A DNA stretch of 64,000 bases from Cymbidium sinense. Its lineage: Eukaryota; Streptophyta; Magnoliopsida; Asparagales; Orchidaceae. The stretch spans positions 76,371,817 through 76,435,816 of the forward strand of contig CM038220.1 in assembly GCA_021442155.1 (NCBI GenBank). The letters run 5' to 3'. Made by a program: the position numbers and the translations under genes. This document shows positions 6,711 to 59,849 of the stretch, piece by piece. A model generated the notes under the pieces. That model saw nothing but the letters and a program-made list of their open reading frames with translations, searched no databases and was not told where the DNA came from. Position 1 is the first letter of the stretch. Each line of letters begins with the position of its first letter.

Positions 6711-7260
6711 ATGAAATATAAAGCTTGAAAATTTATAATGATCAAATTAATTTTAAAATATAAAAAAAAATGAAGTGAGAGTGAGAGAGAGAGAGAGAGA
6801 GAGAGATTTGGAAACAAATGGATCAATATCATGAGTTAGTGATGATCATGATCAAATATCTTATTTACTAATAAAGGGGAGACCGGGATAACATGGATTT
6901 TTGACATCAATGGTTGATGAGCATCGCTCATTGGTAGACATTAGATAATGATTAATAAGAAATATAATAATTAGAACGACATTTAGCAGTTAACTTGGTT
7001 TTTTCTCTAATAGGAGGAGACCAAGCATTAAATTTCTTAAAAATATTTAAATATTTTATTAATTTTTATATCTATATTTTTAAGTAAAATACAAACTAAA
7101 AAGAAAGAATCGAATAAAGTAGATAAAAAATTAAAGTTTATATAATATCCATTTCAATGTAAACTTTATGCAAGTTTTTAAGGAAAAAGTGATTTTGTAG
7201 TTCTAGATTAAAAAATATAAATAGACTATTAATTAAAACTACATTATAGAGATATACTAC
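6711..7260. repeat. Intron/upstream part of duplicated terpene synthase block
   Basis: Matches 29075-29598 plus 34035-34080 in direct orientation, for example GATTTTGTAGTTCTAGATTA at 7192 and 29562, and TATAGAGATATACTAC against TATAGATATATACTAC at 34065. No exon could be read here. The match shows that the second copy was once continuous and was later split by the LTR element at 29599-34034. Confidence 0.75.
6776..6806. repeat. (GA)n microsatellite
   Basis: About 14 GA units with an upstream GTGAGAGT start; the counterpart is at 29146-29170 in the second copy. Confidence 0.9.
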
Positions 7261-7972: not shown

Positions 7973-8113
7973 GAGAAAATATTGCGTCGGTCATGCGTAA
8001 CTGCGATGACTCCAATCCATAAAGCGTGTTGCGATTTTTTTTCCCCATTTTAGCGGTTAAGTAGTAACACATAATGATTGTAAAGGGATGGTATTCGACA
8101 TTTACACTTCCCA
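7973..8113 (+). repeat. MULE left terminal inverted repeat, outer part
   Basis: Begins GAGAAAATATTGCG. It shares with the reverse complement of 19984-20130, in order: GAGAAAATATT, CGTGT followed by a T run, CCCATTTTAGC, AAAGGGATGG, and CATTTxCACTTCCCA. Outside 7973 the two flanks no longer match, which supports this as the terminus. Starting with G and being AT-rich just inside fits MULE ends. Confidence 0.75.
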
Positions 8114-8329
8114 CGGCGTGTCAAAAGTGGGAGAAGAAGAATGAGATGATACTGTCGATCGACATTCCTCGCCACAGAACAGTTTAGTACTTTCTTTCGA
8201 TGAAGGATTTTTTCTCAACTTAGCTCTCATTCTCGATATGATCCGACCTTTCGTGATATAGAAATCAAAATTGAGGTATTGTAGGTGACTACATGAGGTA
8301 TTTACATGCATTTTCGAACTTGAATGAAT

Positions 8330-10870
8330 TTAGAGTTTACTGTTCTTCAGTCGGTGAAAGATTGGTTGTTTTTTATATGTTATTTTGTGTACTCTCTGCC
8401 TCTCGGGTACATAGCATTTAGAGCTTTTTTTTCCAGTTTCTTTAGTTTGTTTCTTGAGATTATGTTCATTACATTCAAATGTAAGCAATTTGGAGGCTAT
8501 TTGGATGGTTTTGGGGTTTTTTTTTTGCATCTGTACTCTCTGTACCTCTCTTGAGGAGTCTGAGATCATTTAGACCTTTTTTTTAGTTTATCTTGCCTTC
8601 TTCTTGAGATTATATTTGGCATTCCAATGGAAGCAATTTGGAAAATTTGGATGGTTTATTTGGGGTATTTTGCATCTGTACTCTCTACCTCTTTGGAGAA
8701 TTCTGAGCTTTTAAACTTTTTTCATTTTATTTTTGCTTGTTTCTTGAGATAATGTTCATTACATTACAATGGAAGCAATTTGGAGGGATGGTTTGGGGTA
8801 TTTTGCATATGTACTCTCGTATCTCTTTGGAGGTACATTTCTTTTTCCAGTTTATTTTGCCTTGAGATAATGTTCATTACATTAAAATGGAAGTAATTTG
8901 AAAATTTTGGATGGTTTTAGGGGTATTTTTGCATCTGTACTCTCTGTACCTCTTTAGAGGGTACAGATCATTTATGTCCTTTTTTTCCAATTTATTTTGC
9001 CTATTTATTGAGATTATATTTAGGGCATTCCAATGGAAGCAATTTAATGGCTGCTTGGATGGTTTATTTGGGGTATTTTATCATCTCTCTGTGCCTCTTT
9101 GGAGGTACAGAGCATTTTACTTCTTTTTTTCAGTTTATTTGCTACTTCTTTTTGATTATATTCATTATATTCCAATGGAAGCAATTTGATATTTGGATGA
9201 TTTTTTGGGTGTTTTTTTTTGCATGTACTCTATACCTCTTTGGAGGTACAGACATTGACTTTTTTTTATTTTCTTTACTTCTTTTGATTATATTTAGGGC
9301 ATTCCAATGGAAGCATTTGGAAATTTGGATGGTTTTGGTGGTATTTTACATGTACTCTCTGTACCTCTTTGGAGATCTGAGATCATTTATGGCCTTTTTT
9401 TCAGTTTATTTTACCTGTTTCTTGAGATTATGTTTAGGGCATTCCAATGGAAGCAATTTGATGGCTGCTTGGATGATTTATTTGGAGTATTTTGCATCTG
9501 TACTCTCTGTACCTCTTTGGAGGGTACATTTGACTTTTTTATATTACTGTTTCTTGAGATTATATTTAGGGCATTCAATGGAAGTAATTTGATGGTCATT
9601 GGATGGTTTTATTTGGGGTATTTTGCATATATGTACTCTCGTATCTCTTTGGAGTATGAGCATTTGGTACTTCTTTTTCCAGTTTATTTGCCTATTTCTT
9701 GAGATATGTTCATTATATTATAATGGAAGCAAGAGGATTTGGATGGTTTGGGAGTATTTTATCTCTGTACCTCTTTGGAGTGCAGATCATTATGGCCTTT
9801 TTTTAGTTTATTTTGCCAAATTGTAGAGATAATGTTCATTACATTACAATGGAAATTTGAAAATTTGTTTGGATGGTTTTAGGGGGTATTTTGCATCTAC
9901 TCTGTACCTCTTTGGAAATTACAGATCATTTATTCATTTTTCCAATTTTATTTGTGAGATATATTTAGGGCATTCCAATGGAAGCATTTGAGGCGCTGGA
10001 TGGTTTATTTGGGATATTTTGTATCAGTACTCTCTGTGTGCCTCTTTGGAGGGTATGAGCATTTGACTCCTTTTCAGTTTATTTTGCTACTTCTTTTTGA
10101 TTATGTTCATTATATTCCAATGGATGTAAGCATTTGGGCTGCTTTGGATGATTTGGGTATTTTTTGCATCATACTCTCGTACCTCTTTGGAGGTAGCATT
10201 GACTTCTTTTTTTATTTATTTTGCACTTTTTTGATTATGTTTAGGGCATTCAATGGAAGTATTTGGAGGTGTTTGGATGATTTTTTTGGTGGGTATTTTG
10301 TATCTTGCTTTACTATTTTTGAGTAGATCATTTTTACCTTTTTCCATTTATTTTGTGCTTCTTGAGATTATATTTAGGGCATTCCAATGGAAGCAATTTG
10401 ATGGTTTTGGATGGTTTTTGGGGTATTTTGCATGTACTCTCTGTCTTTGGAGGATGAGCATTTAGGACTTTTTCCTTTATTTTGCCTACTGATTATATTT
10501 AGGCATTCCAATGGAAGCATTTGGAGGCTATTTGGATAGTTTAGTGGTATTTTGCATCACTCTCTGTACTCTTTGGAGTACAGAGCATTTGATTTTTTAT
10601 TTTGCTTTTTGAGATTATATTTAGGGCATTCCAATGGAAGTAATTTGATGGCTGCTTGGATAATTTTTGGGTATTTTTTGCATCTGTACTCTCTGTACCT
10701 CTTTGGAGGGTACAGAGTATTTAGGGACTTCTTTTTCAGTTTATTTTGCCTGTTTTTTGAGATAATGTTCATTACATTACAATGAAAGCAATGAGTTGCT
10801 TGGATGGTTTTATTTTGCATCTGTACTCTTTGTACTCTTAAGATTGAGCATTTAAAACAATTTGGAAGGC
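8330..10870 (+). repeat. Tandem array A (18 monomers, about 135 bp)
   Basis: Eighteen diverged monomers each contain ATTCCAATGGAAGCAATTTG or a variant, then GGATGGTTTxTTTGGGGTAT, then a hairpin (CTCTGTACCTC, loop TTTG, GAGGTACAGAG) and a T-rich part ending TTGAGATTAT. ATTCCAATGG-type starts lie near 8474, 8621, 8763, 8881, 9027, 9169, 9301, 9441, 9573, 9718, 9843, 9972, 10114, 10248, 10381, 10504, 10628 and 10775; spacing is 118-147 bp. Two monomer types (TTAGGGCATTCC and GTTCATTACATTAC) are arranged in a 7-monomer higher-order unit of about 945 bp. Long hydrophobic reading frames here are by-products of the T-rich strand. The array forms the inner left inverted repeat of the MULE. Confidence 0.92.
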
Positions 10871-10929
10871 TTTCTTGGTTTTGATGGGTGATTTGCACGT
10901 ACTCATTTATCCTTTCTTTTGAAGTTTCT

Positions 10930-11370
10930 TGTGGGAAAAGGATAACTTCAAGATGCAGGCCTACCACTGTAAGAACTATGTTTGATAATATTGCATCACA
11001 CTTTACTAATGAAGCTGCTGACATTTTAAAGGGGCTTCATCTCCATCAATTCATTAGACTCCATGAAATTAAGCAAGACTCGGTTGCCATTACATCAATC
11101 TGTCTTCTTTGGGACATAAACAAGCTTTCTTGTTGGGTGGGCATATTCCTTTCACCCAGGAAGTTGCGATGATAGGGATGCCAAACGAGGGAGAAGGTCT
11201 TATGGAAGAAATCCCGTTGCGATTCATTCATGACTACAAGAATCAACGAGAATTGATGGCTCGTTGCACAGAGATTTGTGCATTGTACATACATTTTCTG
11301 TCAAATCTATTTTTTTATATATCACAATTAGGTGGCATCGAATTGATTGCTTACGCGATGACATAGATAG
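10930..11370 (+). pseudogene. Mobile-domain-like N-terminus of MULE-borne Ulp1 gene
   Basis: Frames at 10888-11172 and 11109-11366 together read FDNIASHFTNEAADILKG, then a WDINK segment, then FLLGGHIPFTQE and VAMIGMPNEGEGL. In plant transposon-borne proteins of the plant-mobile-domain type, and in Ulp1-carrying MULE proteins, a WD...F.iGG..i.FT.eDVALIlGlP.rGe pattern is usual, and this looks like a damaged version: one frame shift lies between WDINK and FLLGG, and residues are missing around QEVAMI. It starts just inside array A, as the first gene of a MULE would. The family call is inference from motif similarity only. Confidence 0.5.
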
Positions 11371-11947
11371 ATTTCTTTGAATACAAGTAGGCCATTTGGG
11401 ACTTCTAGTTTCCAATTTGATGTTATTACATCAAGATTGAACTGATGGCGTTACATGAGTGGCTTTGTCACTCTTTTGATGGTATGTTCTATATCTCCAG
11501 GAATATTTTATTCTAATGTTGAAGTTCTTGTTTAAAATATTCATTGTAGATATGGGCATAAGCATCATAAGCATCATTTCTCAAAGCCACGTATCTTTGA
11601 TGGGCAAAATAGAGTTTCCAAATAATACTTTCACTGGTTTGGGAGGAAACTAGGTGACATATAATAATATCACTTAGTTCATATAAGAATGTCTTTATTT
11701 ATGTTGTATGTCTTCACATTTTCTTATCGGTTTAACAGTGCGCTTTCATTCGAGGACATATTAGAAGAGGAGGCGGCTCCTTTGATGTCCTGCCCAACAT
11801 CACATGTCGAGCAGATATAGTCCCATTTTAAGTCCAATTAGTGCAGCCCCATTGAGTCTCCTATGTGATATTCTCCGTGATGTCTCCCAGCACGCCCTCG
11901 CTACTACCCCCACAGGACTTTGGTGGAGAGGATACTTGGTTTAGGAC
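11371..11947. other. Intron or decayed linker in MULE plus-strand gene
   Basis: No sustained frame. 11740-11940 is relatively GC-rich (GAGGACATATTAGAAGAGG..., CCTCGCTACTACCCCCACAG) and may be exon remnant between the mobile-domain-like part and the segment at 11948. Confidence 0.35.
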
Positions 11948-12300
11948 TTGAAAGATACAGTATCATCTTTTCATGCAACAATGAAGGAGAGGATGGATGG
12001 GCTTGATTTGTGGGTTGCTGCTATCGAGGAAGTTCTTGTCAGGAAGCGGGGTCCTACCACCCCAAGTGTGGGGGAGGTTCCTGTGGGGTCATCACAGGGG
12101 AAACTCTTGAGGAGGCTACCACAGGAGCTTCCCACGTGGAGGTACCCCACGGGAGGCTACCACTTGGAAAGCCCACGAGGAGTGCAGGCAGAGGAAGCTC
12201 TTGTGGAGGCTACCAGAGCTTCCTATGGAGTTGGATACTTCCAACGGGGAAGCCCATGTGGAATTGACCGTAGGTGAAGTTCTTGTGGAGGCCGCCACTA
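11948..12300 (+). pseudogene. GC-rich middle segment of MULE plus-strand gene
   Basis: The frame opens with SSFHATMKERMDGLD, a short amphipathic helix typical of proteins with a central coiled segment, then passes into a GC-rich degenerate repeat. Units resembling GAAGCTCTTGTGGAGGCTACC recur at about 12025, 12100, 12195 and 12275, with inverted-looking CCCACGTGGAGG and CCACGGGAGG words. Base composition is far richer in G and C than the rest of the window. This is probably a low-complexity E/V/G-rich linker of the Ulp1-type protein. No known domain; role unknown. Confidence 0.45.
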
Positions 12301-12639
12301 CACATGATAATGCTCAAACTGTGTGGCATTGAGCATGGTGCTTCCAGATAAGGAAGAGGAAAAGTAGTTCCCCTTCACACACACTTAAGTCATGAGCAAG
12401 AATAAGTGATGTGGTGGCCTCCACTCAAGATGAGAAGCGGTAGTATTAAGTTACTTTCTTTTAAATTTGAGATAATAGAAATAGATTTCACTAAATTTTT
12501 GTATAGGTCTGCAAAGATGAGCCAGTAAAGGTTGATTACCCGCGCTATCGTTGTGGTGGAGGAGCATCAATGGTATGAAAATCTCTAGATCGATAATTAA
12601 TTCATAGTGAATCTAGCTCTTCATCACTAACTTTCATCA

Positions 12640-13540
12640 TCAGTAATTTCCTTGCAGCCATCAGAGCACTTCATGTTGTTGAGTTCTCATCGAAATTTAT
12701 TTTCCTAGTGCTCGATCTTATTGACACGTCATGCTCCCGTTGAGGACAAGTAAGTCAATCCTCAATCGATCCTCCTTCATACATAACCTATTCATTTAAT
12801 TAAGATCACTTTAAAATATTTATCACTTATAGGGGTGATACAGTATTCGCATTGGGAATATCATTATTGCACGAGGCGGTCGATGAGTTCTTGATCAATA
12901 TCTCGGATGGACACATTGATGCCTTGCTTCTTTGGCAGAAGTATTCGCTCTGAGGTATATGTCCCTATTTGTACATTTCATGCTTGCATTGGGTATGTTA
13001 CCCACGAATGTTGGGTATTATGATTCAATTCTTGTTTGTTTAGATAAAAACTAGTATAATCGTTCTCTTCTTTTCTTGAGTTATGCAGTGCACTAAAGAT
13101 GGAAAGCAAAATATTTATCCAACATGTCACTGCTGACAATGTGTCGAGGCCAGAGTTAATCTTATTGCAAGTTATAGATAATCACCTGGACACTCACAGT
13201 TGGGCATATTAAGTTAGGGGCCTGGTATTTTTACAACTCATTACCCAAACCAACCCATAAGAGCATTCTTCACGAGATTGTAAGAATTTTCAAATTTGGT
13301 TCCTCTTAACTATTTTTTTTTTTTTGGCCAACTTGTTGAGATTATGTTTTGCTATTGATCAAATTACTTGAAGATCTTGGCGTCTTTTCGGCGATCAATG
13401 GCCAATTAAATGGTGAGTGGGATACCAGTCAAGAAAATAGTGTCGCGGGAATGTTTGTCAAATACATGGAGGCGGACAAACCTCCAAATTGGAGGGTAGA
13501 CCACCATTGGCCAAAGAAGATGAATATATTTAGGGCGAGT
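12640..13540 (+). pseudogene. Ulp1-like cysteine protease (C48) domain, catalytically dead
   Basis: Fragments of the SUMO-protease-like fold lie in the expected order. 13187-13309 is open and reads WTLTVGHIKLGAWYFYNSLP followed by KPTHKSILHEIV, matching HWxLxVxD...W.xYDSL.x.xH. The catalytic His codon (13183-13185) is separated from the Trp by one extra base, and the catalytic Asp of the YDSL motif is Asn. 13349-13543 contains SQENSVAGMFVKYMEA against the family pattern QxNSxDCGxFVxKYME; the catalytic Cys codon is lost at 13441-13447. Upstream pieces at 12655-12950 (ALGISLLHEAVDEF) may belong to the same gene. All three catalytic positions are broken. Ulp1 genes are known passengers of plant MULEs, which fits its place between arrays A and B. 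Confidence 0.72.
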
Positions 13541-13544
13541 TAAA

Positions 13545-14390
13545 CTTACGCTATATTTTGTTTGGGACTTAAAATCCAAATTGAGAACAATAGGATTTAG
13601 TTTGATATAATTTTGTATAATGCATCGGTTTGGTGGCTTCAAAGACTTAGTATTTTGTTGAAGTGAATGGATCGTTTATATGGAGATGATATTTTACTGC
13701 TTTTGTAACTTCTTTTCTCTCATTTCATATAGTTTGATTTCAGATATTTTACTCGATGATATTTTACTCCAGAATCATATTTTTATCTTATGGATTTGGT
13801 TTTGGGGCTATATTCTCAATAATGTAATTAAAAAAAATGTTATCCACATGCATAAAATTAATGCAAAAATTAAATTGATTACTACCATTAGGGATTATCT
13901 TTTTTTTTAAGTTTCATTGTAAAATTATTGTGGTTGGTGTTAGTAAATTTTGATTGTAAAATCATGATATTTTAGTTTTAATTTTAACTCATATGTATTA
14001 AAATACGATTATGATTGTTGTTAGCTTTTTTTTTATGAAAATAAGTAGTTAAAAAAATTAACTCATATGTATTCTTAGTATGCTTTTCGAGTGAAATGAA
14101 GAATATTAACTTGAACCTTATCTCATTTATTTAGATGAAATAAAAACAAAATAAGTTAATCTATTATAAAAATAGTATTTTTTTTAGCATATTGCAATAT
14201 GAAAATTTAATTCTATAAAATGAAACTTGTCCAAAAGAGATAACTTTTAACATTTAATTATATAAATAATTACTTTCATAGTGTAAATATAATAGATTAA
14301 GAGGCTTTTTTAAATTTATCACCACATTAATTAAATTTATAACTAAATTTTTTGACTAGATGTATAAATGATGATCCGATGCAATCTGAA
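13545..14390. other. AT-rich spacer between Ulp1 pseudogene and array B
   Basis: Very AT-rich, with long T and A runs. A 76-codon frame at 13680-13910 shows only low-complexity hydrophobic residues and I do not call it a gene. Possibly the 3' flank of the Ulp1 transcript. Confidence 0.4.
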
Positions 14391-14394
14391 TACA

Positions 14395-15850
14395 AAAAAA
14401 TAAATAAACCATCTAAGAAGCCATCAAATTGCTTATTAATGACTAAACATAATCTCAAGAAATACAAAATAAACTTGAAGAGTCCTTAAATGCTCACCCT
14501 CCAAAGAGATAGTGATCTAAAAAACACCGAAATCATCCAAGCGAAATCAAATTGCTTTTGGAATGCTAAATATTTCAAATAAAAAATAAATAGAAAAAAG
14601 AAGTCTAAATGATCAGACCCTCAAAGAGGTATAGAGAGCTGATACAAAAAACATAAATAAACCATCCAAGCGACCATCAAATTGCTTCCATTGAATATAA
14701 ACATAACTTAAAGAAAAAAAAATAAAGTCCAAAATGCTCTTGCCCTCAAAATACAGTCTGATCAAAAAACCGAAATCATCCAAGCATCCATCAAATTGCT
14801 TCCATTGGAATGCCCTAAATATAATATCAATAATTAGGCAAAATAAAGGAAAGAAGTAAAATGATGTACCCTCGAGGTACAAAATATGTATCAAATAAAC
14901 CATCATCAAATTGCCAATGTTAAACATAATCTCAAGAACAAAAAAAATAAACTTGAGAGTATAATTCACCCTCCAAAGAAAATACAGAGGTACAAATGCA
15001 AAAATCATCAATAAATATCAAATTGCTTCCATTGGAATGCTAAAATAACCTCAAGAAGCAGGCAAAATAAACTTGAGTCAATAAAAACCCTCAAGAGGTA
15101 TAGACAAATGCAAAAAAAATACCAAATGATCAGCATCAATTGCTTCCATTGGAATGCTAAATATAATCTCAATAATTAGAGCAAAATAAATGGAAAAAGT
15201 CTAAATGATCTCCTCAAAGTATAGAAATGCAGAGCAAAATACCCCACAGAAACCATCCAAAACAACTTTCAAATTGCTTCCATTGGAATGCCTAAAATAT
15301 AATCAAAGCAGGCAAAATAAATTGGAAAAAAGAGTAAATGGTCTTTACCTCAAAGAGGTACAGAGAGTAGATAAAAAAATATCAGAAATCATCCAAAGCG
15401 AAATTGCTTCCATTGGAATGCCAAACATAATCTCTCAAAAAACAGGAAAAATAAAGCGAAAAAAAGTCCATAATGCTCCTAGAAAGTGAGATGCAAAATA
15501 AAACCATCTCAAGCGACTCAAATTGCTTTCATTGAATGTAATGAACATTATCTCAAGATAGCAAAATAAATTGGAAAAAAGTCATAATGATGTACCCTCC
15601 AAAGAGGAGTACTGATAAACAAAACACCCAAAATCATCCAAGCAAACATCAAATTGCTTCATTGGATGCCAAATATAATCTCAGAAAGCACAAAATAAAC
15701 TAAAATAATGATACCCTCAAAAGAGTGAGATGAAAAAGCACCAAATCATCAACTTTCAAATTGCTTTAAATGTAATGAACATTATTTCTAGAATCAGTAA
15801 AATAAACGAAAAAAAAGGTAATAAATGATCTGTACTCATTATGCAAAACA
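14395..15850 (-). repeat. Tandem array B (12 monomers, about 121 bp)
   Basis: The same monomer as array A in reverse orientation: CAAATTGCTTCCATTGGAAT recurs near 14425, 14548, 14678, 14791, 14906, 15019, 15136, 15270, 15400, 15519, 15650 and 15756, spacing 106-134 bp. Many monomers are shortened by small deletions, so the array is more eroded than A. It lies between the two convergent pseudogenes and is inverted relative to A but in the same orientation as C. No element-end sequence like 19984-20130 borders it, so it looks internal rather than terminal. Confidence 0.9.
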
Positions 15851-16039
15851 TATTTATTGCACATATTTGTTACTCTGATCCAATGATTACAAGGTCCTCG
15901 GTGGGATTAACTCAATCCTTTGCTTAAGAGCTACAAATAGTCGGTGAGAAAATCCTAACTAAATCTGATCTAAATATCTTGGTATGTCTGTTAAGTTAAG
16001 AGAGTCATCTTTGGGACTCTAAAACATTCTAAAAGATTA

Positions 16040-18308
16040 TGCATCAGAACACAAACGATAATGACATGCATCAAAATGTTTTCTGATAATATCCATCATC
16101 GACTTAGTGTATCCACCATTTGATTGATTGTGGGTTCGAGTTAAATTCGTATGTAGAACATCATTATTAGTTGATGATTTCTTATAGCATCGATGTGTGA
16201 GATTATGTACCTCGAAAACACTCAGCATGAGAAAGGTGATGCAACTTGTCACGAAACACGTTCATCAACACTATCAGACTGTACTTTGGTTTCTGCAACA
16301 AAAAAAGTAGAAGGGTTTGAAGATTAACATAATATTTAAAATACTAAAAACTAATACACAAATAAAAATTACTCTTGGCTTTCTTGGATCTCTCCCATAT
16401 CCTTAAGCCTTGAGTTGGAAACACCCCCGTTGCTTAACGGATCCTTTAAGATGTCTTTTCCACTTATTTATTGTGGTTGACTTCTTCTTCTTCTTGCTTT
16501 GTCGGAGGAGAATTCTCACTTATTATAGAGACATCATCATATAGTTTTTTAGGGATCCAAGCATATAGTCCTCTCTTATTGCCCGTGCCACGACACTTAT
16601 TTGATATGCATATCGACTTATGTGGTTCGAAAAATAATGCGGTAGCATTTCCATCTCTTGCCACATCTCTTAATTTTATGCACTATCAATGTAAATATCC
16701 TCTTTGCTCGGTAGACCATCATGAGAAGATACTTGTCCGGAATCGCACAATATCTTCGACTAAGAACTCGATACTGATGGGCACAAAGTAATCCCATCAT
16801 TTCAAATTTTTTGCAAGTACAAGTTACTTTTAGGGTAGTCCTATTGAAATACACAGTCCATGTTTTGGATGCATTTTTATTCTCTAAGTTTCTCACCAAA
16901 TACTCCATGATCATCCTCGACTTTATTCTTGATAGGCCTCCAACTCCATGCAAAAATTCCTCTTCAAACATAGTGTAAACCTTTCTTGTATAAAACATAG
17001 CGACTTATTTTAGAATTGAAGGTCTTAACAACAATCGATGACTACACTTGAAGTCTTCGTCATGTTCATTCGATGCCATATCTCCATAACCTTTTCCAAC
17101 CCCAAGAAACAATCGTGGCGAACTTGTTGGTTTAGATATTTGACACATTGTTCATGGACTCACTATGTTGCATTGACAAGATGCCCATAGAATGAGTCCT
17201 TGAATCGATGGACCACTTGGATCTAATCTTATAAAGCTCGCAGCATGATCATGCAAATTTCCTTCTTCTAGCATGGCGGACCAAGCTTCTTTAAACTCTT
17301 CCTCACGAGTCACACTTACTCATGCATTTATAAAATAGCCCTTATCTCTTATTACTATTAAAGCAATGAACCTTGGAAGGAGCTTTCTTTGAAATATGCC
17401 ATTGACAACACTATGATGAGTATCACGGCAATACAATTTATAGCTCTCGCCATAGCGATCTTGATCAGTGAATATTATTATAGGATGTCTGCCACTCATC
17501 AAATGAAGAAATGTTTGGAATAGCCATAAGAGTGACTCAATTGTCTCTTCTGATAAAAAGGCTACTCCAAATAATATATTTTGCCAGTGATGATTCACTC
17601 CAATAAGAGAACATAAGATTATATTTATTGAGTCGATAGCTTGTATCAAAAATTATCACATCCAAAATAATCATATTCTATCCTAGACATGCCATTGCTC
17701 AAAAAAAAACTTACTAAGCAATCGACTCATCAACTTGTACATCCATGCAAACATCCCATCCATTTGCTTGCCTTTCCTTAAATAACTATATTAATGCATT
17801 CTTGTCACCATTCATAATCCTTGATCTTTTTCTTTCGAATAAAATTGAAAGCATCTCTTTTATGAACCCAATATTCTCAACTTCCTCGGTTAGATATGAA
17901 TGCATCAGTTGCTCTAATTCACCTCTTTATTGTCTTTAACAGGCCTTCTCATCGTGCATCTGTGATCGAGAAGATGTAGGTCGGAGAATCGCCAAGAATG
18001 ATTATGACTTTCTATATATTTTTTAATCATCAATTCCCTCAAATCAAGAGAGAATCTAATCATGGACAACTTCTTGTATCAACTTTTAGAATTTTGTTAA
18101 GCCATTTAGAGACTTCTTCGACTTTTGAACATAGAAAATCTTTTGATTTCAATTTCTTTGAGTTTGGTAACTTATGATCCTTCACGAAGCCAATTTGATG
18201 TGTATAATCACGCGGTCTGATTGCATATGCCTGTTTCATTACGAGCAGTGGTGCCAAGGAGTTTCCCAAATTTGGGTCATTAGACATCGACTTCATCATC
18301 GCACTCAT
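16040..18308 (-). pseudogene. FAR1/FRS-type MULE transposase
   Basis: Minus strand, domains in family order. FAR1 DNA-binding part at 18308-17950: AYAIRPRDYTHQIGF, LKSKDFLCSK, then RFSLDLRE, KKYIESHNHSW. MULE catalytic core at about 17720-17300: SRIEYDYFG, then GVNHHWQNILFGVAFLSEET, LLWLFQTFLHLMSG and IIIFTDQD, in an open frame of 109 codons at 17649-17320. SWIM zinc finger at 16839-16788: CTCKKFEMMGLLCAH, in an open 126-codon frame at 16998-16618. Several stops and frame changes separate the pieces, and the first catalytic Asp region (FGDVVxFDT) is garbled to FGCDNF. The gene starts close to array C and runs toward the middle, so this is most likely the element's own dead transposase rather than a host FRS gene. 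Confidence 0.85.
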
Positions 18309-18339
18309 TGTTGCATTTCGCCAAGATACAAAAATATGT

Positions 18340-19710
18340 TACAAAATACATGCAAAAAAATCAGAAATCATCCAAGCGACCATCAAATTGCTTCCATTGG
18401 AATATAATGAACATAATCAAAAGAAATAGGCAAAATAAATTGAAAAAAGAAGTTTCTAAATGCTCTACTCTCAAAGAGAATGAGTACTGATGTAAATATA
18501 CCCAAAATCATCAAAGATCAAATTGCTTCCATTAGAAAGCCCTAAACATAATCTCAACAGTAAATAAACTTGAAAGTCTAAATGCTCAGCTCAAGAGTCA
18601 GAGAATGCAAAATACCTAAATCATCCAAACACCTCCAAATGCTTCATTGGAATGCCTAAACATAATCAAAGAAACAAAATAAACAAAAGAAGTCCCAAAT
18701 GCTGTACCTCAGAAGAGAGTACATATGCAAAAAAACACAGAAATCATCCAGCGACCATCAAATTGCTTCCATTGGAAAATGAACATAATCTCAAAAATAG
18801 GCAAAATAAACTTGAATCTAAATGCTGTACCCTCCAAAGAGTGCAGAGAGTACATATAAAATACCCAAAAACCATCAAAACGACCTCCAAATGCTTCCAT
18901 TGGAATGTAAACATAATCAAAGAAGGCAAAATAAATGAAAGTCCAATGACTTTGTACCCCTCAAAGTGAATGAGTGCAAAATACCCCAAATAAATCATCC
19001 AAGCAACCATCAAATTGCTTTGGAATACTAAAACATAATCTCAAGAAATAGACAAAATAAATTGGAAAAAGTAAATGATCGTACCCTCAAAGAGGAATGC
19101 AATATGATAAAAATACCCACCGAAACCATCCAAACAACCTCCAAATGCTTCCATTGGAATGCCTAAACATAATCAAAGAAGTAGACAAAATGAAAAAGTC
19201 CATAAATGCTGTACCCTCCAAAGTACAAAGTGAGATACAAAAATACCTAAATAAACCATCCAAGCAACCATCAAATTGCTTCCATTGAATGTAAACATAA
19301 TCTCAGAAACATGTAAAATAAAACTAGAAAAAAGCCATAAATGATCTATCCTCCAAAGAGGGTATAGAAATCTGATGCAAAATACCCACCAAAATCATCC
19401 AAGCCTCCAAATGCTTCCATTGGAATGCCAAACATAATCAAAAGAAGTAGGCAAAATAAACGAAAAAGTCCTTAATGCTTTATATCCTCCAAAAGGTATA
19501 GAGTATGATGCAAAAATCTACGAAATCATCTAGCGACCATCAAATTACTTCCATTGTAATATATAATGAACATTATCTCAAATAGGCAAAATATCAAAAA
19601 AAAAAGTCTAAAATCTATCCAAAGAGTCTGTATCTGATGCAAATTAACACTAAAAATAAAAATTCAACAAAAAGCTTCCAAATTTCTAATGGAATGTAAT
19701 GAACATATTC
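18340..19710 (-). repeat. Tandem array C (11 monomers, about 128 bp)
   Basis: Reverse-orientation monomers at about 18384, 18519, 18634, 18759, 18887, 19010, 19141, 19271, 19408, 19540 and 19672. From 18519 on, two variants alternate strictly: ACCATCAAATTGCTTCC and ACCTCCAAATGCTTCC, giving a dimeric unit of about 257 bp. Together with array A it makes up the inner part of the MULE inverted repeats; A and C are in opposite orientation. Confidence 0.92.
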
Positions 19711-19983
19711 TCTTGAGACTGAGAATATCACTAACAAATGTAGAAAAAATGCTGCGATAAACATTCTTGAATTTATTTAATACATCCTCATTAATTGGTG
19801 CTATTTCCTCAACGTTCTCCATCTTCATGGTTCTTTTGTAAAAAGAAAATGAAATTTTCTATTTCTCTTATGAGCTTGTTTTCCCTGAAAAAACTAATCC
19901 TAAACCCTAAATCTGTCTATATATTTCTTTTAAATTCCTCCCACGCATTCCAACGATGCTTGCATGGGTTAAATGGGTCAGAC

Positions 19984-20130
19984 TGGGAAGTGAAAATGGC
20001 ATCTTGAATACACCATCCCTTTCTGGCATGTCATATATTCTTGCTCACATTGCTAAAATGGGAAAAAAATATTGGACACGCGTTGGATGGATTTGTCATG
20101 CATAAAACTCGTGCTCGATAATATTTTCTC
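19984..20130 (-). repeat. MULE right terminal inverted repeat, outer part
   Basis: The reverse complement starts GAGAAAATATTATCG and continues through CGCGTGT, a T run, CCCATTTTAGC, AAAGGGATGG and CACTTCCCA, matching 7973-8113 in order. Between it and array C lies about 270 bp (19712-19983) without a clear counterpart at the left end. Confidence 0.75.
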
Positions 20131-23144: not shown

Positions 23145-25290
23145 TTGGACATCGTATATTTCAGATTTCTTATATTAAAATCCCATCAATTTTTTCATAA
23201 ATTCCATCCAACTCATGGATCTGTGTGGAGGTCAGCTTCTTCCTCATGGTGTTTAAAACTAACGTTTACCACAAATTCACTCCAGTGCTTTTGGGTTCCT
23301 CCAACTTTCTCCAAATCTTGGAATTCTCCGACTTGTATACAATGACCTCATTTGCTCAGTTTCTTTGATCTCGAGGTTTGAAACTAACCGGTTGGGCATT
23401 AACATTTTAAATTCAATATTATCTCTTATGTTATTTGCCCCATTAAATGTGAGTATTCATATATCCTTTTTCTTTTGACTTTAAAGGATTATGATTTATA
23501 TATATCTCATGACATTTTGGTTTACTTATCTTTTGATGTTTGCTTTTAAAGTTTTTATTATACATGTACATTAAGGCTTTTGGCTTCTATTTTTTAATCT
23601 ATGTATGCCTAAGGCTTTTGGCTTTTTAGGTTTTTGATGTATCTATACCTTCTAAGGCTTTTATCTTCTAAGGTTTCTGATATATATATACCTTCTGAGG
23701 CTTTTTTCTTCTGAGATTTTTAATGTACTTATACCTTCTGAGGCTTTTTTGAGATTTTAATGTACTATCCTTAAGACTTTTACCTTTTGAGGTTTTGATG
23801 AGTGAAGACAATGTCAACCACTTGCTCTCTTGAGTCTTTCTAGTGAGGACCTTGTCCACTCTTCCCATCAGCCTTCCTTGGATGTGCCTTTAGGAGGAAT
23901 CCATAAAGGATTTTGACCTATCCGAGATTGTTTATCGAGTGTTACTCTGACATTTAACCTAGAAGAAGTCAGCTTTAACTCTCATCGAGGTTATTTCAAA
24001 GTGTTACTCATGATGTTAACTTGTGTGGAAGAGGTTAAATATTTTGATTATTCCAAGATTATTTGTTAGAGTATTTTCGATACATTATCTTATGGAAGAG
24101 GTTAAATCAAAATATTTGAGGTGTAAAGTTGCTCATTGACCTTTGCCTTATTTTCCATGAGTATGATAGAAGAATCATAATTTGTAAAACCATATATTTT
24201 TTCAATTTTAAAATTGTCTCTTAATCTTGACTTGTTTCTCAACGATAATCAAGTAAATATCTAGAATATTAACATGGACGATCTTTTGAGATTAAGGGTT
24301 GCCCCAACCGATAAATCAAGGATGAGAATTTGATGTTTCTTCATTCATCATATATGCAGTAAGATTTTCTCCATCATATAAATGGTGTTGCTCTTAACTT
24401 GAAGTCATTGTCAACCATTATGAAAATGTAAAAGGAATATTTCCACATATGCCAAATTTGTTGTATGCAAGAAAACCAGTAGCAGTTGAATAAAACTTCA
24501 CACCTTAGCTTGTATAAAAATCCAGCACATGCATAGATAGATGAAAAGAAAATAAGAAGCTCCAGAATTTTTACATGAAAAAATCCCAGAAAGAGAGGAA
24601 AAAATCACGGGGCCTAGCCCAGTAAAAATGCTCTACTATATATCTGCTTTGGAGTACAAAGTTTAAGTCTTCATAATAACAAGATTACAGTATATGAAAT
24701 CTTGATAATTGGAATTTAAAAAGGTTACAACTATCAGATGGTAGTTAAAGCGGTAGTTGGTGACAGTCGAGGATGACAATAGGAAGAGATCGGTGATAAC
24801 GGTGGTGATGACAAACTTCGAACTTCTAATTCTCTTTCAGCTTTCTCCCAAGTTTTCTTCTAGCTACTCCCTTCATACAAGCATGAGTCCTATTTATACG
24901 ATTCACGAAAGGGCATTTTGGTCATTATAGCTAAAATCCTAAAACACTCCATCAGATAGTGTATTGATTCATTTGATCATATATAATTTTTTGGTGATTT
25001 GGTCATTCAAACAATCTTTGATTTGAGTGATCTTAGGTTCGTTGGATTCATCTTATCAAGCTGCTCGATTCGATTATAAGCATGTCAAATTTGGAAGTCA
25101 TTTGATCATGCAGTCAGTGTTTCGAAGTTTTCATATGTAGATTTTGGGCTTGATTTGAGCTCATTTTGCTCGATTTGACCTATATCTATCATTGTTGAAC
25201 TCGTCTCACTGAGTCGTTTAATTTGATTGTATACATACTTTAACTTCAGATCTGTGCATGATTTATAAATTTTAGAGGGATATATTAATG
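23145..25290 (-). mobile_element. Truncated non-autonomous LTR element, copy 1
   Basis: Minus-strand relative of 29599-34034. One LTR is at about 24455-25290: TTTTTACATGAAAAAATCCC, CTTTGGAGTACAAAGT, ACTTCGAACTTCT, CCTATTTATA and GGGCATTTTGGTCAT match complements in both LTRs of the complete copy. Internal parts follow: TTAACxTGTGTGGAAGAGG-type repeats (24000-24110), the 40-bp minisatellite in complement (23570-23800, AAGGCTTTTGGCTT units) and the GGTTTGAAACTAACCGG block near 23380. No second LTR is present on the left side. No polyprotein sequence was seen. Confidence 0.75.
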
Positions 25291-26152
25291 GTAATGGATG
25301 TATTTTAGATTTTTTTGTATCATCCCATGTAATTTATCTCGGTTTACTTGCTTTCAAATATTTTATCATTATAATTTTGATGATTTACAAAATATTAATG
25401 ATAATAAATTTAAATTGTCTTGCCTCAAAGTTAAAGTCCCAAGTTGAGGCGATCATCTTACTGTTGAGCATCTTATTGTTGAGCTTGAGTTGATGTTGTC
25501 AAGTCTCACACTTAAAATGTACTCCTAAGAGAACTTGCTATTGATTTCACAGGAGAATTTACTACTTAACTCACTAGGGAATTTGCTAAAGAGTTTATAA
25601 TGAGAATCACTTTCTTAAATGATCTCATGCTTAGCATAGAATTCATCAAGGATGCCCAAATGCTTGACAATAATTAGGATTATTTGAAATCACTTTTATT
25701 TATTTTTAAACTTTCTCTTATATTTTGATTTAAAACTTTGCTTAACATTTTAAATTTGTGTCATATAAAGGTGAAACTTCAAAACTATGCTTTGGATTCG
25801 ATGAATTAAAAATTTTATTTTAATTTTAATTAAAATATTCAAAATATGCCATGCATATTAGTGTTTAATTTAGTTTTATTTTATGAGGTCTATCAAAAGT
25901 TCAAAAGTTGATTAAATCAAAAAAGTTTTTTTGTTAAAGTCAATTGTGTCGCCAATCATTTTTTTTTTCATTCAATTTTAAGTAAGTCAAGACTACTCTA
26001 GATGTGCATCATTGAATATGTATATGTGATTAGAAATACAAGATAAATTTTAATTATTTTTGATTTATCATATTTATTTAAAATAATTTAGATAATTTTA
26101 AGGTTGTCTCTAACAAATGTTTAATCAAAATATTCTAAAAATATTTTTCATG

Positions 26153-26221
<69 letters not shown>

Positions 26222-27185
26222 GCAAGATACAAATTGAGTATGAATATTTCTAATCATTAAAGAGTTTTGTGAGTTGGCTTTTGTTACGTACATACAAGCA
26301 TATGTTGTGGAGGCACATTTTCATCTTGACTCTTCTCAAGAGCTATGTAAGTTAGCTTTTGTTTTTCCATTGTTGTTCACATTTTATTATAGCCACTTGA
26401 CAATTAATGCTGCTTGATGGATGATTCTGATTGTTCTTTGGCGCATTAAAGTCATTTGATGTAGATGAACTGATGTATGATATGCCTTAGAAGTTTTGTT
26501 GGAAAGGCAACTTCATATTTTTTTATTATTTTATTTTAATACTTTTATGGGAAAGGTTACAGCATATTTATACCAAGGTTAGAAAAGTAGGACTGTTTAG
26601 GAGTTTCAACAGTTTGCACACAATATGAATTTTTTTTAATGAAGTTTATTATAGCTATGTGAATGCATTTGATGCAATTAAGGTTGGTAAACCAAAAGCT
26701 TTAGCTGATTTGATTAGATTTTTAGTTGTTCTTTTCTTCTTAGTTTCATATGGACCTTTTTTTATACTTATTCAAGTAGAATTTGGATGCTTCAAAGTGT
26801 TTGATGTACACAACAAAGTGCTACCACCATAAATGTTCATGTCATGAATGCTGCGTTATTTTGTTTGCATGCGAATCAACTTTCAAGCATTATATGCATG
26901 TTGGTTATAAATAAATTGAGTGGGAATTAATGGGGCTAATTATGTCATTGATTTCATGTTGGCCAATTTCTTGAGTGGCCCATCTTCTCTACAAAGAAAG
27001 AAGGTGAAAATATGAATTTGATGAGTTGTAGAGACAAAATGATGTAAAAGATGAGAAATTGGAGAAAATTTGAACCATTACTATACACCAATATTTGTAA
27101 GTCGATTCTAAAGTCATATCATCATAGTGAATTGGGTTTAGCAAGTAATAATTGAATGCTTGAACCAATTCTATAAAAGCTTTAA
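25291..27185. other. AT-rich DNA, no gene recognised
   Basis: Apart from the (AT)n tract at 26155-26218 no repeat or coding sequence could be assigned. Short frames show no family motifs. Confidence 0.4.
26155..26218. repeat. (AT)32 microsatellite
   Basis: Uninterrupted AT dinucleotides over about 64 bp, self-complementary and able to extrude as a hairpin. Confidence 0.95.
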
Positions 27186-27189
27186 ATCT

Positions 27190-27720
27190 CTTAAAATATA
27201 TATTATATGAAAAGATTCTTTCTACTAATGGATAGAGTCACTAACTATGTTGATGAAACACTTATATGAGAAGATATAAAATGGGAAATATCTTTCATCT
27301 TTCTTGGGTGGGATGAGTGCTTGAACCTAATACATTGGGATTTTTCATTTTGTTTCCTCCCAATGCATTGCATATTTGAGGGCTATTGAGTTTCTTTTCT
27401 CTCCAAAGTTCATAAGGTGTTTTCTTGATGATACATCAAACATTTATTTGAGTTATCACATAGCATAAAATATTAATCACTTTTGCCCAAAGTTATTTGG
27501 GTAGGCTAAACTTTAAGTATAGTCCGAGCATACAAGTGTCTTATTCTAGCATTTTATTGTACAATTTTACTATGGTGTCCTATGAGCTAAAAAAAGCTAT
27601 ATCAAAGCACATAGTCATCACAAAATATTTCAAATTTTTTCATGTACAAATTCTCATCCATAATCATTTCCAATGCTAGAAATTATTGATCCATTTTCTA
27701 TGTAAGTTCATTTAATCAAT
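27190..27720 (-). pseudogene. Ty1/copia integrase remnant
   Basis: The minus strand reads in one frame with stops: KKFEIFCDDY (core region preceding the HNFSAPRTPQQNG motif, here LIGHHSKI), NARIRHLYARTILK against ERKNRTLxEMARTML, LPK.LWAKVINILCYVI against LPKxFWAEAVNTACYVLNR, then IIKKTPYELWREKKLN against the copia motif KTPYELWxGKKPN. The catalytic Glu neighbourhood is damaged. No reverse transcriptase could be read on the lower-coordinate side, so only an integrase segment survives. Confidence 0.7.
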
Positions 27721-28512
27721 TTTGTAAATTTTAATAGGGCATCAACTTATTTGAAACATAATTTCATATATTCTAAAGTCATTGTTTAGTGCATAGCTAG
27801 TTTTTCAAATTTTGTATACTAAGATGCATTCTTCATATAAGTGTCAGATATACTATCAATCATATTTTTATTTCTATAGAAGCTATACATCAAATATATT
27901 AAAAAAAATTAAATAAGAAATTATTGCTAGAATATGCACGCGTGCACGTGCGTATTTTATGCACTTTAGAAATTATGTATAATATTTAATTGAGGCAATA
28001 GCTTAAAGTAATATCTAAGATATTGATAGATTTATAGATTGAAATTATTATTATTATTTTAAAAAAAATTTGAATGTTACCAAGTAATATAAATAATAAT
28101 GAGTGAACTAAGTCAATTTTGAATAAAACTCAATCATAAACCCATTTATGTATACTAATTTAAGCATATATGTTTAAACTTTTAGGCATGAAATATATAA
28201 TAAGTTGGATTTAATTAAAGCTTAATTAGGGATCATGTTTGATCTCAATAAGAAAACTAACAAATAATGTTGCCTCAAGTTCAGCTCAAATTCAATAAAT
28301 ATATAAATATATAAATTGATCAGGATAGTACTCAACTCGATTTATGTTTAACGTAAACTACGGTTGTGGAGTTAACTCTAGAGATCAAGCTTTGCCATTA
28401 TGCAATTGGTTAATTAAATGATTCGATATAGGCTATAGATTTCTCTCCCTCAAATTAATAGAAATGCTTTTGAAGAGCAATCACATTATGGAAGCCTTAA
28501 TGTGATGTCCTG
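27721..28512. other. AT-rich DNA, nothing recognised
   Basis: No motif-bearing frame and no clear match elsewhere in the window. It contains a short GCACGCGTGCACGTGCG purine/pyrimidine-alternating tract at 27935, an isolated curiosity. Confidence 0.4.
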
Positions 28513-28863
28513 GAGAACTAAATCCATCTCCATGTTGGTACAGGAAGCTCGCCATTCTTGCAAGATTTATATAAGCATCAATGGATCGTTGAGGGAATTG
28601 TGAATTAAATGCAGCATAATATCACTGTTCATTTCGTTCCATGTTTTTTTTTTTTTTTGAGATATTTGAGGTAATTTAATCTCAAACTCATACATATAAT
28701 ATACATATAAAAACATGAACTAAATATCTCTTAATTTCATATTTCACCTATCAATATTGATATATGCAGGCGAACCTCTCTCTTGTAGCATTGAACTTAT
28801 GTTGTTACATCACCTCTCTCTTGCTCGGCCTGAATTTTTAATTTCTTATGATTAAAGCCAATT

Positions 28864-28888
<25 letters not shown>
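28864..28888. repeat. (GA)n microsatellite
   Basis: About 12 GA units, the counterpart of 6514-6538. Confidence 0.9.
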
Positions 28889-28895
<7 letters not shown>

Positions 28896-29145
28896 TACGT
28901 GAATATAGTAAAGATAAAATACCACTCTTCTAATATATGGCATGCCTCCAACCTAACATTTAGAGAAAGTTGACTTGTCTCCATTAACAGTATTATTGAG
29001 GGTAGAAAAATAAATCTTCATATAATCTGGAAGTTTTATGTCTTGATGTCTCACCTAAGTAATTCATAAAAATAATGAAATATAAAAGTGTGAAAATTTA
29101 TAGCGATCAAATTAATTTTAAAATGAAAATATAAAGAACTGAAGT

Positions 29146-29170
29146 CGAGAGAGAGAGAGAGGGAGAGAGA
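29146..29170. repeat. (GA)n microsatellite
   Basis: GA tract with one GG interruption, the counterpart of 6776-6806. Confidence 0.85.
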
Positions 29171-29593
29171 TTAGAGGAAACTCAATATCATGAGTTAGTG
29201 ATAATCATTATCAAATAACTTATTCTACTAATAAAAGGGAGACCAGACAACTGATAACATGGATTGTTGACATCAATAGTTGATGGGCATCACTCATTGG
29301 TAGACATTGGGTAATGAATAATAAGAAACAAAACAATCAGGATGATGTTTAGCAGTTAACTTGGATTTTCTCCTAAAAGGAGGAGTCCAAGCAATAAATT
29401 TCTTTAAAATATTTAAATATTTTAATTAATTTCATATTTATATTTTTTAAGTAAAAAACAAAAATGAAAAGAAAGAATAGAATAAAGTAGACAAAAAAAA
29501 ATTTAAAGCTTATAATATCCATCTCAATGTAAAATTTATGATATTTTTTAAGAAAAAAGTGATTTTGTAGTTCTAGATTAAAAATGTTAATAT

Positions 29594-29598
29594 ATTAT
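29594..29598. repeat. Target site duplication, left (ATTAT)
   Basis: Identical to 34035-34039 on the other side of the LTR element. Confidence 0.85.
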
Positions 29599-30390
29599 TG
29601 ATATATATCCATCTAAAATTTTATATCAAATATAGATTTCAAGTTAAAGCATATATTCAATCAAATTCAATGACTCAATGAGATGAGTTCAATAATACTT
29701 GGTCAATAGGTCAAATGAGCTCAAATCGCTCAAAAGTATATATGAAAACTTTGAAATCAATTGAATGATCAAATGACTTTCAAATTTGGCGTGCTTATAT
29801 AGTCGAATCGGCCGAGATGAATCGAGCCTAAGATCACTTAGATCGAAGGTCATTTGAATGGCCAAATTGTCAAAAATTTATCTATGATTAAATGAATCAA
29901 TACGGATCATCCGATGGAGTGTTTTGGGATTTTGGCTACAATGACCAAAATGCTCCCTCTCAAAATCTTATAAATAGGACTCCATTCTTGTCATGAAGGG
30001 GGAAGGATGAGCTAAAAGTGAACTTGGAAGAAAGCTGGGAAAGAACTAGAAGTTCGAAGTTCGTTATCACCACCATTTGTGATCGTCGTATTATCATCGT
30101 CGGCGCCACCAACACCATTATGGTCCCAACCACTATACTTACGATTCTAGAATTCTCATTATCGATTACTCACATACAATCTTGTGTAATCTTGTTGGGT
30201 GACTTAAACTCGTACTCCAAAGTAGATATATAGTGAAAATATTTTTTTTTCTTGTGTTACTCGTGATTTTTCTCCCTCATCACGGGTTTTCCGTAAAATT
30301 TTGGAGTCTTTTATTCTTTTTTATCTTCGTGCGTCTAGATTTTTTTAAGGCATAAAGTTTTATTACCGCTACAATATTTCAGCACTGACA
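29599..30390 (+). repeat. 5' LTR of non-autonomous element
   Basis: 792 bp from TG to CA. It shares with the 3' LTR: TCTAAAATTT, CTTGGTCAA, CGAxxGTCATTTGAATGG, CCGATGGxGTGTTTTG, ATGACCAAAATGCTC, TCTTATAAATA (a TATA-like promoter candidate at about 29970), TACTCCAAAGTxGATATATA, GTGATTTT and TTTTCACGTAAAATTTT-like stretches. By eye the LTRs differ by many substitutions and by deletions totalling over 100 bp in the 3' copy, so the insertion is not recent. Confidence 0.88.
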
Positions 30391-30405
30391 ATTTGACATC
30401 ATGTG
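30391..30405 (+). promoter_or_regulatory. Degenerate primer binding site
   Basis: ATTTGACATCATGTG directly follows the 5' LTR and resembles the initiator-methionine tRNA complement (TGGTATCAGAGC), with transitions consistent with old, methylated DNA. Confidence 0.5.
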
Positions 30406-30739
30406 AAAAATAGATTCTCATTACTTCATCATGTCGACAACCAAGTTTCTCAACAAGATTGAAAGTACCCAGTGGAGCACTTTGTACTTTTGAGGAGTGC
30501 ATGTGAAGAAGAAGATTCATCAAACTCGATTCTTCAAGCTTTTGTTGGAAACTTGGGCAACTCTTAATCTTAGAAGATGCTATGTTAATATGCTAAGCAT
30601 CTAATTGATTACACCTAAGTTACAAGTCAAAGTCGGAGGATATTTTAACATTGAGAAAAGATAGCTTGACAAACTGTTATCTTTATATTATAAGGCAAAG
30701 ATCAAGGAGCAACTTTGGCTACAACCTCAAGTGGGTGTT

Positions 30740-31140
30740 TTGATTTGACCTCTTTCCACAGTTAACGTCATCAGTAATACTCGACAAATAATTTTGGAAA
30801 AATCAAAATGTTTAACCTCTTTCACACAAATTAACATCATACTTTGACAAATCAACCTTTGATGAGAGTTAAAACTATTGACTTCTTCCATACGTTAAAT
30901 GTCACCGAATAACTCCAAACAACCCGGATATGTCATAATTTTCCTCCACAGTTAACGATGTAATACTCTAATAAATAATCTCAAAGAATCAAAATATTTA
31001 ACCTCTTCCACACAGGTTAACATCATACTTTGATAAAATAACATCAGATAAGAGTTAAAACTATTGACTTCTTCACACAGGTTAAATGTCGTTGAGTAAC
31101 ACTTTGACAAGCAACCTCAGATAGGTCAAAAATCATTTAA
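30740..31140 (+). repeat. Internal repeat with TTAACxTCAT / TTTGACAA words
   Basis: Three or more diverged units of roughly 100-190 bp share CCTCTTxCACA(CA)xTTAAC, ATCATACTTTGA and GAGTTAAAACTATTGACTTCTTCC. The same units occur in complement at 23930-24110 in copy 1, so they are an original part of the element. Confidence 0.6.
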
Positions 31141-31249
31141 GGATTCCTCCCTAGAAGGCACGCCCCTGAGGAAGTCTCGATGGGAAGTTAGTAGTGGACA
31201 AGGTCCTTATTAGAAATACTCTAAGAGAGGAAGTGGTTTAAAGGGTCTC

Positions 31250-31650
31250 CACTCATCAAAAACTTCAGAAGAAAAAAGCCTCAAAAGGTAAAAGTACATC
31301 AAAAATCTCAGAAGGCAAAAGCCTCATAAGGTATAGGTGCATCAAAGCCTCAGAAGGTACAAGTAGATTAAAAATCTCAGAGAAAAGCCTCATAAGGTAA
31401 AGGTACATCAAAAATCTCAATAGGTATAGGTACATCAAAAATTTTAGTAGGCAAAAGCCTCAGAAGGTACAGATACATCAAAATCTAGAAAATCTTAAGG
31501 TACAGTATATTAAAATCTCGATAGATTAAGCCTCATAAGTACAATCACAATCTTAGTAGTACATCAAAATCTTAGTAGGCAAAAGCCTCAAAAGGTAGAT
31601 GTACATCAAAAATCTAAGAAGTCGAAAGCCTTAGAAGGTACAGAGACCCT
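31250..31650 (+). repeat. Minisatellite of about 40 bp inside LTR element
   Basis: About ten degenerate units built on GTACATCAAAAATCTCAG followed by AAGGCAAAAGCCTCAGAAG. Starts of AAGCCTCA lie near 31276, 31319, 31345, 31385 and 31455. The core AAGGCxAAAGCCT is itself near-palindromic. Related arrays lie in complement at 23570-23800 and, much eroded, at 36000-36230. Confidence 0.8.
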
Positions 31651-33354: not shown

Positions 33355-34034
33355 TGATATATCTAAAATTTATAAATAAATCATAAATCTCAAAATAAAA
33401 TATGTATCAAATTAAATATCAGAGATGAGTCCAACAATCTTGGTCAATTAAGTCAAATTAGCTAAATCGAGCTCAAATCTACATATGAAATTTGAAATAC
33501 TGCGAATGATCAATGACTTAAATTTGGCGTCTATAGTTGAATCGACGATGATCCAACTTAGATTTTCAGTTGAAGGTCATTTGAATGGTCAAATCACCAA
33601 AAATTATATGATCAATGAATCTGTCCGATGGGTGTTTTGAGATTTTGACTATGACCAAAATGCTCTCGGAATCTTATAAATAACCTCATTCTTGTCATGA
33701 AGAATAAGCTAGAAGTGAACTTGGAGAAAGGCGAGAAAGGCAGAAGTTCAAAAGTGTTTGTATTATTACTCACCACCACAATTCAAAATCTATCATTATA
33801 TTTTGTATAACGATTGAATTCTTATCGATTTATCACATACATTGTAATCTCGTTATCGAAAAGATTCAAACTTTGTACTCCAAAGTTGATATATAGTGAA
33901 ACATCTTTATTATTTTGGGCAGTGATTTTCTCCATCTTCCGGGGTTTTTCACGTAAAATTTTTTATTTCTTAACTTATCTCTGTGGATTTTCCAACAAGG
34001 CGTGAAGTTTTATTCTACCACTTTAAGGTTTCTG
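33355..34034 (+). repeat. 3' LTR of non-autonomous element
   Basis: 680 bp, TG to CA, shorter than the 5' LTR through scattered deletions, many of a few bases. It is flanked on the right by ATTAT, the same 5-mer that precedes the 5' LTR. CTTATAAATAA near 33676 is the counterpart of the TATA-like box. Confidence 0.88.
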
Positions 34035-58300: not shown

Positions 58301-58450
58301 GCTTTTCCTTTAAGTGTTGGCTTAAGCGTTGCTATAAGTTGGGTGCCATTATTATCCCCAAGGAATATTTACTAGAACAACCCTCTAGTTCTGTTAGGGT
58401 AATCCTTGGGGATACAAGTGATCTTCTCAAGATAAAGGAAGGTTAGGATA
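55346..58450 (+). pseudogene. gag of Tat-like Ty3/gypsy element
   Basis: The N-terminal part (55346-56560) is in broken frames rich in Ser, Pro and basic residues. The core gag domain at 57240-57826 reads KDIKQLVEQQVKDALVQA, SSGNPRQHIAHFMACV, then after a frameshift near 57480 RDRITFDWYAKLPNGSMKAF, AELEQLFIKRFVGAQ and YILRWSNLSMKCEPQLSEEH. The C-terminal Cys/His motif CPYHRMLGHLLEDCFSFKCW is at 58258. It would form the capsid and bind RNA. It is the plus-strand counterpart of the remnant at 1-2030. Multiple stops. Confidence 0.85.
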
Positions 58451-59830: not shown

Positions 59831-59849
59831 TTCTTGAGAGCTTGGTGAA

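Follow-up and report, generated by a model that had tools for sequence, protein, structure and literature searches.

We analyzed a 64,000-nucleotide stretch of the genome of the orchid Cymbidium sinense (contig CM038220.1, positions 76,371,817 to 76,435,816; hereafter the window, whose own coordinates are used throughout), in which a Mutator-like element (MULE) had been predicted at positions 7973-20130. At this locus, a pair of terminal inverted repeats (TIRs) encloses three arrays of a single tandemly repeated monomer, lying in opposite orientation at the two sides, together with a FAR1-type transposase gene that is broken in this copy. The locus most likely corresponds to a dead MULE with foldback-type subterminal arrays. 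Its features, each with the analysis that located it, are the following:

7973..8113, plus strand: left TIR, 141 bp, starting with GAGAAAATATT (alignment to the right end)
8359..10855, plus strand: array A, about 19 monomers of about 130 bp, 2.5 kb, with a weak tail to 10911 (E = 0.03) (monomer profile)
10912..13550, plus strand: stretch that may hold a broken second gene directed inward (protein-like pieces in several frames, by eye)
14389..15837, minus strand: array B, about 12 monomers, 1.4 kb (monomer profile)
16544..18281, minus strand: broken FAR1-type MULE transposase gene (Pfam MULE and SWIM domains, tblastn of relatives)
18347..19696, minus strand: array C, about 11 monomers, 1.35 kb (monomer profile)
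19984..20130, minus strand: right TIR, 147 bp (alignment to the left end)

Ends, arrays and genes of the element

First, we recovered the inverted ends of about 140 bp at 7973-8113 and 19984-20130, just where the original prediction had placed them. Local alignment of 7973-8113 with 20130-19984 showed 112 identities among 129 aligned bases (112 of 159 columns when gaps are included) and a score of 62, as compared to a mean of 21.2 and a maximum of 29 for 200 Markov-simulated right ends, none of which scored as high. When the left end was scanned across the window (400-base pieces, both strands, its own place excluded), the right end scored 62 and the runner-up 29. Between the ends lie, from left to right, a 245-bp spacer, array A, 3.5 kb that include the possible broken second gene, array B, the minus-strand transposase gene, array C, and a 287-bp spacer; the sequences of the two spacers are mutually unrelated.

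Second, the 21-base core of the monomer, with up to five errors allowed, has 16 plus-strand matches in array A, 11 minus-strand matches in array B and 11 minus-strand matches in array C, and only four elsewhere in the window, every one of them at the five-error limit. Outside 7973-20130, no convincing monomer was found in the 64-kb window, where the profile gave just two matches (E = 8.3 and 9.3). For the putative satellite birth proposed earlier, the window therefore offers no convincing array of the monomer independent of the transposon. The exact core had no match in a collection of viral contigs, which holds no plant DNA and is little informative here. An array just inside each end, with A and C in opposite orientation, had been proposed; the shared monomer of about 130 bp and the opposite orientation of A (plus) and C (minus) stand, as do both arrays themselves. 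The arrays do not directly adjoin the TIRs, however, since the 245-bp and 287-bp spacers intervene, and there are three of them, the middle one (B) having been left undescribed. Inverted ends with internal tandem repeats, a feature of foldback-type transposons, are thus present as A and C inside the TIR pair, and of the features of a MULE we found the transposase, its gene being broken, and long TIRs (141 and 147 bp).

The transposase gene was identified through a Pfam MULE domain at 17320-17652 (E = 2.3e-9) and a SWIM domain at 16618-17004 (E = 3.3e-6), both above the cut-offs. Twenty-three related proteins were found in databases, the best with an E-value of 1.3e-64 and 34% identity over 54% of the query, and 22 of them bear a FAR1, MULE or SWIM Pfam domain. 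The sources named among the 23 are Dendrobium (17), Phalaenopsis (2), Festuca (1), Rhynchospora (1) and Juncus (1), all of them monocots, which points to a monocot host; one protein has no named source. A tblastn search with the 23 proteins placed all 62 matches within 15800-18400; among the matches listed, 11 matches of four proteins span 18281 to 16544 piecewise, in all three minus frames, indicating that this copy cannot make transposase. A gap of 66 bp separates the inner edge of array C from the first transposase codon in the alignment, which lies downstream of it, so that the array would sit where the transposase promoter is expected. Regarding the earlier proposal of several MULE-type genes between the arrays, this gene is the only one recognizably of that type.

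The possible second gene, if real, would begin just inside array A and read inward. Such a pair of genes, both directed inward from promoters located in the ends, is the layout of MuDR. In the stretch at 10.9-13.6 kb no Pfam, PDB or protein-database match was obtained, the Pfam search on the minus strand having covered two open reading frames. No VANC gene was recognized either, as this candidate is without any match; given that its pieces are short and spread over several frames, the failed match is weak evidence against VANC. An assignment to the Ulp1/C48 type was suggested by eye from what we take to be a motif of that type, but was backed by no search, and we do not claim it.

Conservation and history of the monomer arrays

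For the comparison of units we retained 39 (18 from A, 11 from B and 10 from C) with an E-value below 1e-6 and a model span above 100, partial edge units being dropped. Conservation within the monomer, measured across 38 units, is unevenly distributed: the 12-base blocks range from 0.90 (best) to 0.52 (poorest), the variance among columns reaches 0.031 where 0.004 would be expected (over 108 sparsely gapped columns), and conserved columns cluster (lag-1 autocorrelation 0.47; 0 of 2000 permutations as high), with conserved blocks alternating with variable linkers. A hairpin or other RNA structure of the monomer was rejected, RNAalifold giving 0 pairs on 38 aligned units, a set that left out the weak outermost unit of A at 8359 and the partial edge units. 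A short dyad, TTCCAATGGAA, is intact in 18 of the 38 units. Short dyads number 16 in A against a simulated mean of 3.8 (standard deviation 2.3), 4 against 3.4 in B, and 5 against 2.5 in C; as the excess is clear only in A, no palindromic function is claimed.

Units of the same array have a mean identity of 0.755 (A), 0.713 (B) and 0.714 (C), and units of different arrays one of 0.713-0.726. The arrays intermix in a tree of the 39 units, which shows 15 label changes where shuffled labels give 17.6 on average (15 of 200 shuffles gave no more than the tree); three of its four well-supported forks mix arrays, and its terminal branches are long (median 0.14). Units of B and C are inseparable (permutation p = 0.44). 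Each array was tested for periodicity, and a p-value below 0.05 was obtained for C, with a period of two units (p = 0.018), but not for A (lag 7, p = 0.074) or B (p = 0.63). Tandem Repeats Finder reported longer periods, which measure about 406-414 bp for array A and 251-269 bp for array C. The two arms were also rejected as plain inverted copies of each other, their unit order not being collinear (8 tests, p = 0.18-0.93). Judging from these relationships, the arrays probably expanded before A, B and C separated, or else swapped units, and a long decay with little local turnover and heavy loss of CpG would have followed.

CpG dinucleotides are strongly depleted in the arrays: A has 5 where 65 would be expected, B has 9 (32.5 expected) and C has 8 (33.2 expected), while the regions outside them have 19 against 14.4 expected (7973-8358) and 8 against 12.4 (19697-20130). 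The depletion is consistent with methylation and deamination of the arrays. However, the TG+CA ratio of the arrays (1.13-1.20) is not above that of the remaining element and flanks (1.02-1.22), which counts against deamination, and a CpG-poor founder monomer would explain the depletion equally well. It should be noted that the CpG-rich left TIR region (7973-8358) borders the nearly CpG-free array A (8359-10855).

The inner flanks of the arrays, compared in three ways, showed no similarity (123, 161 and 33 of 200 nulls as high). As for the outer flanks, 15951-15977 next to B resembles 19896-19924 next to C, with 25 of 26 aligned bases identical and a score of 33 against a maximum of 31 among 200 nulls. 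The stretch outside B and C holds a CCTAAACCCTAAATC-like motif, which we take to be of promoter type.

Related transposons and the possible role of the arrays

Among plants, the FARE element of Arabidopsis, reported by Windsor and Waddell in 2000, is said to be of the foldback type and to have repeats within its large inverted ends. The present element resembles known foldback-type and anti-silencing transposons and is a further example of these, not a new kind.

Tetris of Drosophila virilis is a foldback transposon whose TIR-internal tandem repeats became satellite DNA, and its authors suggest that it belongs to the Mutator superfamily and was amplified into satellite DNA (PMC4079207). Both elements have TIRs with internal tandem repeats of satellite size (about 220 bp in Tetris). 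Unlike the present element, which has a transposase gene and a monomer without clear match to its ends, Tetris belongs to the non-autonomous elements, and a segment of 37 bp is common to its repeat and the outermost domain of its TIR (PMC4079207). Tm1, a Mutator/Foldback element of root-knot nematodes, is similar in its MULE-type transposase (in one Tm1 group) and its composite inverted ends with a motif repeated in variable numbers, but the Tm1 motif measures about 14 bp and lies within the TIR itself, and 9-bp duplications are documented for it (PMC3169594). The P-superfamily element Galileo of Drosophila likewise has long, internally repetitive inverted ends, and the tandem repeats in its TIRs hold further sites for the THAP domain of its transposase (PMC3688188). 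Galileo belongs to another transposase superfamily, and binding has been shown for its repeats (PMC3688188), whereas for the present arrays it is a matter of analogy.

Among plant MULEs, a parallel is offered by the VANDAL elements of Arabidopsis, in which motifs that have built up in tandem repeats are bound by VANC, a type of anti-silencing protein (PMC5735166, PMC10398659). As in VANDAL elements, the tandem repeats of the present element (A, B and C) lie in its noncoding regions (PMC5735166, PMC10398659). However, VANDAL TIRs are degenerated (PMC10398659) and a VANC gene is present, whereas here a clear TIR pair was found and no VANC was identified; the covered parts of PMC5735166 and PMC10398659 do not mention a mirrored orientation of the VANDAL repeats. 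Plant MULEs with multiple (tandem) TIRs also have repeated sequence at both ends, a repetition proposed to improve transposase recognition, but in these the TIR itself is repeated once or twice (PMC3310237), unlike the present case, where the TIR is single and each array inside it consists of 11-19 copies of another sequence, the monomer. Among the literature matches listed (titles and abstract openings, with most subscription literature outside their scope), no report described mirrored, satellite-like subterminal arrays in a plant MULE of the FAR1 clade; given this limited coverage, we make no claim of a first report.

By analogy with the THAP sites of Galileo and the targets of VANC, we consider the arrays putative binding platforms for an element-encoded protein, and we judge it somewhat more probable than a coin toss that the locus is a decayed FAR1-clade MULE of foldback architecture whose arrays provided such binding sites. 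From outside to inside, it is built of a 141-147-bp TIR, a unique spacer, and a subterminal array of the monomer of about 130 bp in opposite orientation at the two sides; on the right side, the transposase gene divides the arrays into the blocks C and B. The monomers would offer many copies of a binding site for the FAR1/SWIM transposase or for the product of the 10912..13550 stretch, and this multiplicity could let a protein with a short recognition site single out its own element.

Several points weigh against this reading. To begin with, it is drawn from one copy of the element. No target-site duplication of 8-11 bp is present at the exact ends, so that the 9-bp duplications expected earlier do not appear at this copy; the best duplication within shifts of four bases (7 of 8) overlaps the TIR, and 5.6% of 500 random site pairs match it. 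This fits an old copy, yet it leaves one MULE feature unproved. In addition, no clear similarity links the monomer with the 140-bp ends, so nothing connects the arrays to the sites of transposase action. The left end with its spacer reached a score of 28 against the monomer (3 of 200 nulls as high), the match falling at about 8174-8198, in the spacer; the right end with its spacer reached 24 (41 of 200 nulls as high), and the left side, when the monomer was reversed, 15 (a score reached by 199 of 200 nulls). The idea that the arrays are multiplied ends was rejected on these grounds, and the original proposal that the inverted repeats had been enlarged into arrays is not supported. The block conservation may partly stem from the fact that units were located by, and cut at, their most conserved core, and partly from old monomer types being mixed. 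Finally, the unit tree is poorly resolved (21 of 36 inner branches below 80, bootstrap not settled), and units of A are slightly nearer to one another than to those of the other arrays (permutation p = 0.0002 overall; A-B 0.001, A-C 0.007).

The main rival explanation keeps the same element and regards its arrays as non-functional foldback expansions, produced by slippage and unequal exchange and tolerated since. The longer periods in A and C are such as unequal exchange leaves, and the two-unit periodicity in C, the lack of mirrored unit order between the arms, and the lack of a conserved hairpin all agree with this explanation, while the clustering of conservation inside the monomer speaks against it; we regard it as possible but distinctly less probable. 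It is improbable, on the other hand, that the arrays are an independent satellite in which the MULE ends and gene lie by chance or through nested insertion. The lack of a clear target-site duplication and the dissimilarity of the monomer to the 140-bp ends would agree with a satellite, but the arrays lie inside both ends, in an orientation opposite at each side and with no convincing monomer outside the element in the window, and units of all three arrays intermix. Lastly, it is very doubtful that B and C were once a single right-hand array, with A and B+C as the original foldback arms, into which a transposase cassette (about 15850-18346) entered later: A (2.5 kb) about equals B plus C (2.8 kb) in length, array C breaks off near position 60 of the monomer and array B takes it up again at about 72-78, both edges carrying TTTTGCAT, and B and C units are inseparable, but this is given little weight because the cassette, whose putative ends score 16 (19 or more in at least 10 of 300 nulls), was rejected as an element with its own inverted ends, and an edge coincidence of such size is not rare (1 in 5, as a rough guess).

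Returning to the reading of the arrays as binding sites, a bolder version of it, which we consider unlikely, is that mirrored subterminal arrays evolved in a monocot FAR1-clade MULE as a platform for self-recognition, where a DNA-binding protein of the element would read blocks repeated about 40 times, in parallel to but independently of the VANC targets, and that such arrays could seed satellites in this genome. If further copies exist, the family would make it possible to ask, far from Arabidopsis, whether such arrays are selected as binding platforms or are a by-product of foldback exchange, and also whether they seed plant satellites as Tetris does in flies. At present, the value of this single dead copy is mainly that of a well-resolved anatomical example.

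Other repeats and open frames in the window

A second inverted pair, at 23622-25285 and 29603-31423, consists of two oppositely oriented members of about 1.4-1.5 kb that are 70-75% identical, and a short array of 43-bp repeats lies near the outer end of each; partial relatives lie at 33362-33961 and 34647-34821. In six frames of 23760-31254 no Pfam domain was found at E-values up to 1, and the pair is possibly another foldback-like element or an inverted repeat pair. A direct repeat at 7001-7233 and 29366-29602 (240 columns, 85% identity) has one copy ending 740 bp to the left of the element. A 65-bp repeat occupies 53855-54770 in 14 copies (82% matches), and longer periods, 131 and 196 bp, are seen there as well. 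Finally, five plus-strand open frames of 131-169 amino acids lie at 57147-61547, the last of which resembles a reverse transcriptase of Ty3/gypsy type.

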